Assembly (NCBI GenBank): GCA_026745465.1
Contig: JACYXH010000242.1
Coordinates: 1,268,501 to 1,332,500, forward strand
Reading direction: 5' to 3'
Source of the DNA: Lota lota
Lineage: Eukaryota; Chordata; Actinopteri; Gadiformes; Lotidae
Length of the DNA stretch: 64,000 nucleotides
Shown here: in pieces, positions 47,992 through 53,129 of the stretch
Numbering within the stretch: position 1 is the stretch's first letter
Layout: every line of letters starts with the position of its first letter
Position numbers and translations under genes: made by a program
The notes under the pieces: generated by a model
Database searches by the model: none
The model's input: the letters and a program-made list of their open reading frames with translations, nothing else
What the model was told of the DNA's origin: nothing

Positions 47992-50900
47992 ATGGGACTG
48001 AGCGTGTGGATTTGCGTGCTCTACAGTCTACTACATGCTGGCGTTCTGTCGCAGACCCTCCACTGCCCACCTGGGTCGAACCAGGGCTGCGTCCGGGGCC
48101 TGATCACCAACGACGCGGATGAACAGGTAAGAGGTGCATTTTAAAGACAGTGTTAAGACACATTTACTGCAAGTCTTTTATTCATTCATTGTATTGTTGG
48201 CTGAGGTAGAGATGGTATGAGAGGGGGAACCACTTTGAGCTAGGACATTTTGTGCCGACTTATCTGGCTTCTGTTCTGTGTTAGGAGGAAAGATAGACAA
48301 GGTGTACTTTATTACATTCCAGGTGGGAAATCCTTGTGTCACAGCAGACAGGTAAAAACTGCAACAGAGCCCACTGGTCCGTTTGGGCCCTGTCGTTGAT
48401 AAACACCCGGTGAAACATGAAATATGGTTACATAAACCCCCATTTCTCTGCGTTGTGAATCATGCCAGACCACTTGCAATGTGACAGAGAAAAAGAGAGA
48501 AAAGCAAATCCTACCTCTACCGAGGAATCTACAGCTTAACAAGCTCTTTGACCACTGCCAGCTTCTGTCAATCCTTTAGTTGTCAGAAATACCGTCCCAT
48601 TCTATACCGCCATACTATTGTAGTGTACTATAATTTCGCCCATTTTCAGAGTGTATAAGTACATGACAGATATTCAAGTGGACTCCAAGACTGAACAAGC
48701 TATGTGTACATATTAAGCGCTATGTCTCACCATTGACTGGCTAGGCACACACACCCATACCCACACCCACACAGCAATCTCCGCCCTCTCACTCTGTGGT
48801 AGCATGGTGATTCACTGCACACCCAAGCGGTAGGCCCACTGCTGTACACACACATGGCCTCAACCTATCGTGACTCTCCCTTCACACAGACACACGGCCT
48901 AAACCTACTGTGACTCTCCCTTCGAAAAAGTATTCTGTGACGACAATTGTGGTCGGGCGTATTCCAGGTTAGTGGCAAGGACGTGTACAGTAAAACACCA
49001 CCTTAACCAGACACATGCTATTAAACCAGAGACAAAACTCATTGTAACATTGCTCTCCAGCCGTAATGTCACCCGCCCATAAGTGTACGCCCTCCGTGGA
49101 ACTCAAGGCGTTTCATGTGGACAGCATGCTGTCATACTTCAGACTGGCGGTCAACATCTTTTTTTTGTTTCCTGTAGACAGTCCCACATGTTCCTCCGTC
49201 CAAAATAATCATCCTCATATGGGATAAAAAAACGGATTTAACAGCTGGAAGGAAGCGAGCGGAGGGTTTTCACTCACACGTTATAAATGGGATGGGGTTA
49301 GAGAAGTTCTGCCACTGAGGCAGTTTATAAATGGACTTTGTGTGGCTTTATTCCACATATGTCTCTTCAGTCTTGTTTTTTTTCTCCCTTTTTTACTTAA
49401 TTGCCGTATGCATAATTAAAAACATCTCAGCTTTGGTGGGAACAAACTCATTTTCACGATGGCTGCTGTTGTCAGCCTCTCGTTTAGCTGTTCAATCCTT
49501 GGCTAGCTCCATTGGTCTGTATACCTTTGCCTGAGCAAGGTCACTGGCTGCCTACTGGCACAGAGCACATTGCGAATTGAAATGTATGGGAACTGCCAAC
49601 ACACAATGCCTGAAACAGCAGAAAAACAAGATGGAAGATGGAAAACATGTTGCAAGTTTTAATTAAGTATTTTTTGTGTGTATTACAATAATGAATGAAA
49701 AACTGAAACTAGAGTATTGTCAAGCAATCGGGAACCAGAGCTTGAACAAACTAACAAAATCAAGGTTGTTCTCGTCGGGTGGCATAAATAGAGTTCATGA
49801 ATGGTCTGTAAAGTGTAAATCATTCATTGTGATCTTTAGTATGAGATGCCCATAGGAATGAACTGTCTGGGAGTGGAAATACAGAACATGGGCAGACTTG
49901 AATGAATCTAAAGGCAAAATGAAAACCTATAGTGCTATTCGTAGCACTCTTTCATGCAGCATTGTTTCATTCACCGCTTGTGAATGCCAAGAGAATATGG
50001 CATTAAATGTTGTTACAATGTGATGGCACTCATTTCAAATGACTGGAGTTGTGCGATGATGCAATCTCAACAGTTTTTGTTTTTAGAAGTCATGTTGACC
50101 TTTGACCTTTTCTCCCTCTCCTTTTGCTTTCCAGTATACAGATAATATGGAGCAACAGAGACCCCATCTGTTATCTGGCGCCGAGAGACACACACTGGTA
50201 TGGTGCTATCAATAATCCCCTCTCCTGTACAAGGGAAGTCATCAGTCAACTCTCTGTGCCAAGTTGCCAGAGAGACAGAGTCTGAGACAGGTAGACAGAG
50301 AGAAGGCACTCACATAGAGAACACGAGACAGACGGCGAGAGTGAGTGTGTGTGTGTGTGTGTGTGTGGGGGGGGGGGGGGGGGGGGTGAAGTGGGTAACC
50401 TCTTAGAGGGAGGCGGGGCTTAAGACTTGGATCACTCCCAGATTGGTGGTAAGAGAACCACATCGAGCTGCATTAGAAGTTCAAACAGATGTTTACAATT
50501 CTCCCCATCGCCACAATAGGCTATGTAGATGGGGGAGGGGGGGGGGGGGGGCAATAAGTAGGTCAGTAAAAGGACAAACAATTCCAGACAAAAAGAGGAA
50601 TGCCTGTCTTTGGTGCTTCTTAGCATGACCCACAACCGCAGAATGTGAATGACGGATCCCTAATTGTGCAACGTTTTTATTGATTAAAAGCTAAATCCAC
50701 GCAGTCCTAAAAACAGCGATATTTACCCGTGACTTCATCATCGTTGGGCTGCACTGCCTTCGATCGTTAGAGGTAACTCACAGAAGAGAGAGAGAGCTTC
50801 ATAAATATTCCTGCAGATAATGAACGGTGCAGTAAAAGTCATTGTGCATCATAGGCAGCCAAAGCTAACGGGGATTACCTGAGGCCATTACAGTAAATCC

Positions 50901-53129
50901 TGGACAGCAGGGGTGTCAACAGTTCTCAAGTCCAGTCTTGTTTTCTCCGTGACATCACGTTCTGAACTCATGGAAAAGACTGCAACATTTTAGGGGCAAA
51001 AAAAGAAAAGAAAATGTCAAAACAAATGCGTTGCAAATTACCAACCGGGTGCATCAATTACAGCGCTTAAACTCAGAGACCTCACAAACAAAAGAGGCCC
51101 CTTCGATAACGACAGAACAAAACTGTTTTCATCTCACATCCTTTATTTCCATAAACAGGACTGGAGAATAGTTCTCCAATATATACATTTCTACTTCCCG
51201 TTACAGAACTTACATAACATAGCATGATTGACTGAATGTTACTGAAGTCCCTTAATACATTCTTATTATCTGAGTCTAATTTGGAAACACAAGGCCGCTG
51301 TATCTCCCGAGTGACAGTACATTCATTAGGAAAGACTGGAGAGAATCGATGGGAGTCTTCCGTTTGAGTATGGATCGATGGCGGGGTGTAGGAAGCAACC
51401 AGGCCAACAACAGCAATAATAATTTCTGCCATTTCCTCTCCCTAGAGCTTGGCATTAGATTACAGCACAATACAAGAGTACAGAAGATACCACTGCAGCA
51501 TGGACCATGATAGAAATACACCACCCCACCACAACCGTTACAATACGACACAAAATAACATAATGTGACACAATACACACCACACAGTGACAGAACGTAC
51601 ACGACGGAACATAACATAACAGCACAACAAAGAAAAAAAAAAAGCAATTAACTGAAGGGTTGCTAAAACTTGAAAAGCCAGTTTAAAACAAAATAACATG
51701 AGCGATATGTGAATAGGAAATAATGTATGTTTTTCAAGATGCGACTGTATTCGTAAAAACACTGAATTAGCTCATGGAGCCGCATGCAGGAGGTTGCGTC
51801 ACCACCTCGTTCCACTAACTGCAGTGCGTTTGATTAATGAAAACCTTTCGTCCCGACAGGGCGTGATGAGACGGCAGAGGGACCATGAGCATCGGCAGAC
51901 CACCCACAACCTGAGCCAGTCCAGTCAGCCCGGGGCCGTCACAGTAAGGGGCTTCCCAAACACACTCATACAGGTGAGACGCCGGTAATGGAGCAGGAGC
52001 ATGACATTTATGCGCAAGTCGTATTCTTCACCACAGTCTAGTGGTGAAGGTGTTTGACTCCCTTCTGAAAAGGTTTTGGGTTCGAACTCCAATTTACCAG
52101 TGATTTACCAGTGTACCTGTAGCGCTTAATGGTACCCTGCGAGTCCTGTGTATGCGACGGGTGTTGACGTTGCCGATGTGGTGTGTTGTGGGGCTGGTTT
52201 CAGGCGGAGCGGGCCAGGAGGCACCTCCCCGTGCCCACGAGCATGAAAAAAGGCAAGAGGAAGCCCCGCGTCGGCTCCTTCTCGCTCATTATCAACAACA
52301 ATCCCTCCACGCCCCTACAGGTGGGTCTCCATGGCAACTGCCAGTGCAGGGGAACAGCTGGGGCAAGAGCTGAAGCAGTGTGTGTGTGTGTGTGTGTGTG
52401 TGTGTGTGTGTGTGTGTGTGTGTGTGTGTGTGTGTGTGTGTGTGTGTGTGTGTGTGTGTGTGTGTGTGTGTGTGTGTGTGTGTGTGTGTGGATACATAAG
52501 ACCACCTCCAGTTGGGTTTTTATTTGATCAGGTTCAGCACACCCTTTGCCAGAGTTGTTTACAACACGGCACTCGTCGCGACCTTGAAACACCCTTTGAC
52601 AGTTCTGCAAAAAAACATTGCCGGCTAATTTACACAGATCACCACCCCCCCCCCCCAGAATAAACCACACGTTTGCTGCTTAACTTCTCATTGGAAGCCT
52701 TGCAGGACTAAGAGTGCTGTGTGAACGGTGAACGAACACAAGCGCTTTGTGTTTGGTTGCTCTTGCAGATTAGCAGGGCCCGGAGACAAGTGAAGACCGA
52801 CCCACCAAAAAGAGGGAAGTCGGGCCGTTCTGGGGCCTACTCTGTTCTGGTGAGTTCAAATCTTTTAGTTGAATTACAGTTAAGACAACAGTTACCCCCT
52901 TTTTTCTTCCATTTTAATTTGAAAGAGTTATTCATGTTCTTCTTGAATATACCTACATTTAATTAATATTTCTCATTTGGCAAAGTCTATTGACACTCAA
53001 TAGCAAAACACAAGACACAAGTAACAGAATGATTGACATTGTTTTTTTTTCTCGTTTTCTTGTCGTGTTTTTTATTCTCTCCAGGGAGACTCGCAGACTG
53101 AAGGACAGACTGAAGGAGTGACAGAATAG
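47992..53129 (+). CDS. Predicted secreted prepropeptide, six exons, family not recognised
   Basis: Coding exons are 47992-48126, 50135-50197, 51860-51973, 52204-52320, 52769-52849 and 53085-53129, giving 184 residues. Every junction is phase 0 with AG acceptors and GT donors. Residues 1-20 form a signal peptide (cleavage near VLS|QT). Two Cys follow at 25 and 33. The rest is hydrophilic and basic, with no other Cys. Furin-type RARR motifs at 107-110 and 146-149 and MRR at 69-71 delimit three segments of exactly 35 residues (72-106, 111-145, 150-184). Segments two and three share a GK..(P/G)R.G(S/A)(F/Y)S(L/V) core. Exons 3-5 begin alike and look duplicated. A TATA box lies upstream and a poly(A) signal downstream. 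I could not match any known hormone family. The exon model is well supported by splice signals; the hormone role is inference. Confidence 0.7.
48127..50134 (+). other. Intron 1 of the peptide-precursor gene
   Basis: Bounded by CAG|GTAAGA and TTTGCTTTCCAG. No further exon, repeat array or RNA gene was recognised in this 2-kb intron apart from short CA-rich patches near 48750-48900. Confidence 0.65.
50198..51859 (+). other. Intron 2 of the peptide-precursor gene
   Basis: Bounded by CTG|GTATGG and TCCCGACAG. It contains a (GT)n block running straight into G20 (50345-50386), a G15 run at 50537-50551 and a stretch rich in CATAACA/CACAAT words at 51540-51630. No exon was seen. Confidence 0.65.
52030..52150 (+). 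mobile_element. tRNA-headed SINE-like element, copy 7, in intron 3
   Basis: It contains CAGTCTAGTGGTGAAGGTGTTTGACTCCC (A-box region) and GGGTTCGAACTCC, a near-perfect B box. It fills about half of the 230-bp intron 3 of the peptide-precursor gene, in the same orientation as that gene. Confidence 0.75.
52378..52490. repeat. (GT)n microsatellite just after a donor site
   Basis: It begins 57 nt after the donor of exon 4 of the peptide-precursor gene and lies inside intron 4, so it is (UG)n in that transcript. Confidence 0.98.

Follow-up and report, generated by a model that had tools for sequence, protein, structure and literature searches.

What does the six-exon locus at 47992..53129 (+) make, does it have relatives, and is it a gene at all? 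The window, that is the whole 64,000-nucleotide stretch of Lota lota DNA that was analysed (C242:1268501-1332500), had been interpreted before in a sequence-only reading, which took the locus for an unassigned secreted precursor built of three equal 35-residue segments.

The gene model and the predicted precursor

The six-exon model is found in the DNA exactly as that reading gave it, with identical coordinates, gt/ag at all intron borders and 184 residues followed by a stop codon. The exons were described as symmetric, and indeed the length of each is a multiple of three and all are in phase 0. The TATA box pointed out earlier (TATAAA, 47914..47919, +) lies 78 bases 5' of the ATG, and a poly(A) signal (AATAAA) is found at 53584..53589 (+).

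Exon 1 (47992..48126, +) has a start codon with A at -3 and G at +4, and it encodes the predicted signal peptide (about residues 1-20) and the cysteines C25 and C33. The open frame reaches back from this ATG to 47275 and contains four more in-frame ATGs as well as CA and G repeats; because of the position of the TATA box, 47992 is the likely start. Exon 2 (50135..50197, +) encodes a portion of the acidic spacer and is the weakest exon, with a donor of 2.7 bits. Exon 3 (51860..51973, +) begins with the head GVMRRQ and contains the first 35-residue segment. Exon 4 (52204..52320, +) has the head AERARRH and then the second segment, which is basic and contains KKGKRK and GKRKPRVGSFSLI; its acceptor is weak (1.1 bits) and its codon score is the best of the six. 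Exon 5 (52769..52849, +) carries the head ISRARRQ and KRGKSGRSGAYSVL, while exon 6 (53085..53129, +), whose codon score is slightly negative, adds an acidic 14-residue tail and the stop codon.

The N-terminus of the protein is strongly hydrophobic, with a mean hydropathy of up to 2.09 over 11 residues, and by eye, with no dedicated predictor, VLS20|Q fits the -3/-1 pattern of a signal-peptide cut. Basic cleavage-type sites follow at 69-71 (MRR), 107-110 and 146-149 (both RARR). These features bear out, as far as they can be tested, the earlier proposal of a likely secreted precursor with convertase-type sites. Judged from the sequence, the product is very probably secreted, and we somewhat favour that the precursor would also be cut at RARR. 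RARR is a furin-type motif and is found in secreted proteins other than hormones as well.

The segments at 72-106, 111-145 and 150-184 are each 35 residues long and are bordered by MRR (MRRQ at 69), RARR107 and RARR146; segment 3 is encoded by two exons and runs up to the stop codon. Further basic sites lie inside the segments, at 119-124 (KKGKRK in segment 2, with the amidation-type order G-K-R) and at 157-158 in segment 3. The final peptides therefore need not be 35 residues long, and intact 35-mers are doubtful.

Together the six phase-0 exons make up a coherent gene, and the basic head stands at a nearly equal offset in exons 3, 4 and 5, with RR at residues 4-5, 5-6 and 5-6 respectively. 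This exact pattern arises in 2 of 200,000 within-exon shuffles, which agrees with the earlier remark that the three exons start alike; RR anywhere inside residues 3-6 of all three together arises in 30 of 200,000. In a sum-of-pairs alignment of exons 3-5 the observed score is reached by none of 3000 shuffles, and by 73 of 3000 when the heads are left out.

When whole exons are compared pairwise, exons 4 and 5 stand out: 6 of 5000 shuffles reach their global score and 28 of 5000 their local score. The corresponding numbers are 222 and 2989 of 5000 for exons 3 and 4, and 1842 and 1414 of 5000 for exons 3 and 5. The likeness of exons 4 and 5 is weak once the heads are removed (149 of 3000 shuffles global, 81 of 3000 local). 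Their modules share the core K-G-K-x-x-R-x-G-x-F/Y-S-L/V. A repeat finder applied to the introns gave only simple repeats and short matches, with no copy of the exon surroundings. Given the pairwise tests and this null, a duplication of exons 4 and 5 is likely and old, and "three equal repeats" overstates the case.

The segments lead to the same view. Aligned in register, the pairs 1/2, 1/3 and 2/3 are matched by 337, 3167 and 1852 of 5000 shuffles, so that the three segments are not alike in register by these tests. With free local alignment the numbers are 2042, 154 and 133 of 5000; pairs 1/3 and 2/3 are then slightly above chance and 1/2 is not. Of the earlier claim of three equal segments, the 35/35/35 count and the shared heads thus stand, while likeness in register is no better than in shuffles and only exons 4 and 5 are clearly alike. 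An old duplication is the probable origin of exons 4 and 5, and exon 3 may have a common origin with them.

The composition of the mature chain also allows another reading, in which a real gene makes a secreted protein that stays uncut or is cut once and acts as a basic heparin- or matrix-binding factor instead of a source of peptide hormones. Residues 21-184 carry a net charge of about +10.8 at pH 7.4, to which segment 2 contributes +5.6 (the spacer, residues 21-68, has -3.4), RARR is in line with furin acting in the constitutive pathway, and no hormone family is matched in Pfam. However, cut-type sites are found at three exon heads, and the chain behind the signal peptide has no cysteines besides C25 and C33 and therefore no disulfide-rich domain. 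We consider such a factor an unlikely product of the locus, though the foremost competitor of a cleaved precursor.

Relatives and genomic neighbourhood

The genome itself (575 Mb) was searched for relatives. With the 184-residue protein, all six of the matches obtained are its own six exons, and exon 4 alone finds only itself. A search with exon 1 gave two candidate paralogues, on C479 (E 0.28) and C249 (E 2.66), which were dropped on their E-values; at the C479 match an in-frame ATG is absent from the 150 bases before it. By these searches the gene is single-copy in this genome.

Outside the genome, no relative was found in the PDB, nor among 208 prokaryotic and 28 viral contig stretches that fit the pattern, and Rfam gave no match at the gathering threshold. 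The libraries were other than fish databases, so these nulls are no evidence that the gene is confined to this fish. In the titles, abstract openings and passages of the open-licence literature that were retrieved with peptide strings, locus neighbours and novel fish neuropeptides, the gene is undescribed among the matches listed, and the passages of PMC4226156, PMC12714231 and PMC4992253 do not describe it either.

The gene sits between myrip and spag16/ndufb4. On its left lies myrip on the minus strand, with the first exon at window 33098-33208, and beyond myrip there is an exon of prlh2 (C-RFa) at C242:1212936-1213019 (+; L015 4436-4519), which encodes EIDPFWYVGRGVRPIGRF-GKR and matches Pfam Prolactin_RP. 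On its right are spag16 (minus) and then ndufb4 (plus; Pfam E 7.7e-24). The synteny beside spag16 was thus correctly given before, and myrip and prlh2 join the list of neighbours. Beyond ndufb4 follow an ARX-like homeobox gene (one piece, no Pfam family) and two genes that we take to be POLA1 (DNA_pol_B at 21.7 bits, narrowly short of the 23-bit cut-off) and PCYT1B (CTP_transf_like 33 bits); the name of the ARX-like gene is likewise our assumption. By eye, the right flank also contains a Tc1/mariner-like transposase in a long open frame (L028 3808-4743, +).

The gene named spag16 here (window 58607-61102, -) is presumed to be so from its N-terminal half, in which no Pfam family is found; matches to WD40 families come from the C-terminal part. 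It looks intron-poor: a single open frame encodes the N-terminal 323 residues, and two others the WD40 part. Only one place in the genome matches the N-terminal part. Human SPAG16 is divided into many more exons, so introns may have been lost here. Between the first ATG of spag16 (-) and that of ndufb4 (+) there are about 150 bases (window 60941-61097); the two genes stand head to head and likely share a promoter; the open frame of spag16 extends across the ndufb4 start.

A family search with Prolactin_RP finds only two loci in the genome, C242:1212936 and C637:1403385, the latter 36 kb from a melanophilin-like exon on the same contig; C172 also carries a melanophilin-like gene. According to a passage of the review PMC4226156, PrRP2 shares zebrafish chromosome 24 with MYRIP, and PrRP shares chromosome 9 with melanophilin; the pairing on C637 is in keeping with the arrangement given there.

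C812:2238860-2238970 (+) holds a second myrip-like first exon with 84% identity; some 10 kb upstream of it, an E2F-like gene was recognised by eye. A lost copy of the peptide gene was sought in the 19.5 kb upstream of this myrip-like gene (L039 and L040), with six exons each, i.e. 12 tests, against 40 shuffled peptides. In L040 no exon has a best match that beats the shuffles (8 to 38 of 40 reach the score), and in L039 four exons fail in the same way (6 to 35 of 40). The other two matches in L039 are reached by none of the 40 shuffles: exon 4 scores 41 against at most 40, in a serine/proline-rich, repetitive frame, and exon 3 scores 44 against at most 42. The exon 3-like open frame (L039 9528-9722, -) is near the E2F-like gene, on the expected strand and side; by eye it is devoid of convincing splice sites, and no module like exon 4 or 5 lies beside it. 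This match is probably due to chance.

The locus could also encode a fish member of some known family of vertebrate hormones that has diverged beyond recognition by profiles. In favour of this reading are its place in the prlh2-myrip block and the fast divergence of small hormones. Against this, Pfam-A at E 10 gives no accepted family for the whole protein, only a sub-threshold match to TAF1C_C (E 0.18, 12.6 against 22.5 bits), and none for any of five protein pieces, in line with the earlier statement that the precursor matches no known hormone family. The RF-G-K/R signature is absent as well: for PF15172 (prolactin-releasing peptide/RFamide) the protein has neither a Pfam match nor RFG. We consider a disguised member of a known family improbable.

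Coding evidence

Codon scores were trained on 1025 codons of SPAG16, MYRIP, NDUFB4, POLA1 and PCYT1B, with the candidate gene left out. In its reading frame the spliced gene scores 70.8 bits, while the other two forward frames score 48.4 and 35.6 and the reverse frames at most 25.5. Only the reading frame is free of internal stops; each of the other five frames of the spliced exons contains 3-9. When the bases of the same exons are shuffled, 91 of 2000 shuffles reach the codon score of the CDS, which is modest support only.

Further, start, splice-site and codon scores were combined in a dynamic programme that was run over 46500-54500. The best multi-exon gene is the same six exons in four of five settings, and with the dearest intron cost (-13) exon 2 is left out. 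With the site thresholds set to 3, a previous run recovered exons 1, 3, 5 and 6 and missed exons 2 and 4. The gene scores 73.5 bits, which none of 200 local dinucleotide shuffles reaches (highest 39.3). In the rest of the window the top-scoring windows are those of spag16 (184.1 and 141.6) and a stretch with the first exon of myrip (69.3).

In the flanks (20 loci, both strands), 23 of 96 windows reach 73.5 bits. By eye, 19 of these are on the strand of recognisable genes and four look like antisense shadows of coding exons rich in GC, in myrip and in the ARX-like gene. As such shadows match the score of the gene, the score alone is no proof of coding. No competing gene lies on the opposite strand of the locus, where the best chains score 18.9 (44-52 kb) and 16.6 (48-56 kb). 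Among regulatory motifs, the window contains no RE1 neuronal silencer site at up to 3 mismatches, and CRE-like sites occur at chance level (26 against 25.5 expected).

That the locus is non-coding, with open frames that line up by chance or a transcript without a protein product, would fit the lack of a homologue in the searched sets, the modest outcome of the base shuffles and the shadows of equal score, but it is highly improbable given the dinucleotide shuffles, the best and stop-free codon frame, six exons in phase between a TATA box with a signal-peptide-like start and a poly(A) signal, and an opposite strand without a coding gene. As far as gene finder, frame and shuffles can test it, the earlier claim of a real spliced gene holds, and we regard the locus with high confidence as a real coding gene.

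Proposed function and comparison with known systems

The explanation that we prefer, by a modest degree of belief, is a single-copy orphan secreted precursor of 184 residues that would be cut by furin-type convertases, with the freed pieces signalling outside the cell. A signal peptide of about 20 residues would be removed, leaving a basic and probably flexible mature chain. Furin-type convertases would then cut after RARR110 and RARR149, with the end of MRR71 and KR123/KR158 as possible further sites. At least one of the pieces set free would signal extracellularly, the modules of exons 4 and 5 being the likeliest candidates. That a freed peptide acts as a signal is, on what can be read from the sequence, slightly better than an even guess, and its role is possibly that of a peptide hormone.

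More tentatively, and on balance doubtfully, the locus could represent an undescribed peptide-hormone family of fish, perhaps of vertebrates more widely, with duplicated exon modules that share a core, present in single copy and head to head with myrip in the prlh2 block. Discoveries of peptide hormones in vertebrates are rare, and there are still receptors without a ligand. With its exact exons and testable cut sites, next to the locus of a known hormone, the model supplies direct candidates for peptidomics and receptor screens.

In general, multi-peptide prohormones consist of a signal peptide, a spacer and modules parted by basic cut sites. The predicted precursor would resemble them in this proenkephalin-like layout, with repeated basic cut sites between its modules, but it differs in that its main site is RARR and not KR, that the modules are only weakly alike and that a family signature is absent. 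Compared with prolactin-releasing peptide 2 (C-RFa, prlh2), it is without the RF-G-K/R end, and Pfam Prolactin_RP matches the prlh2 exon but not this protein. Both are encoded in the same myrip block of the same contig, and like prlh2 the gene would make a small secreted peptide precursor.
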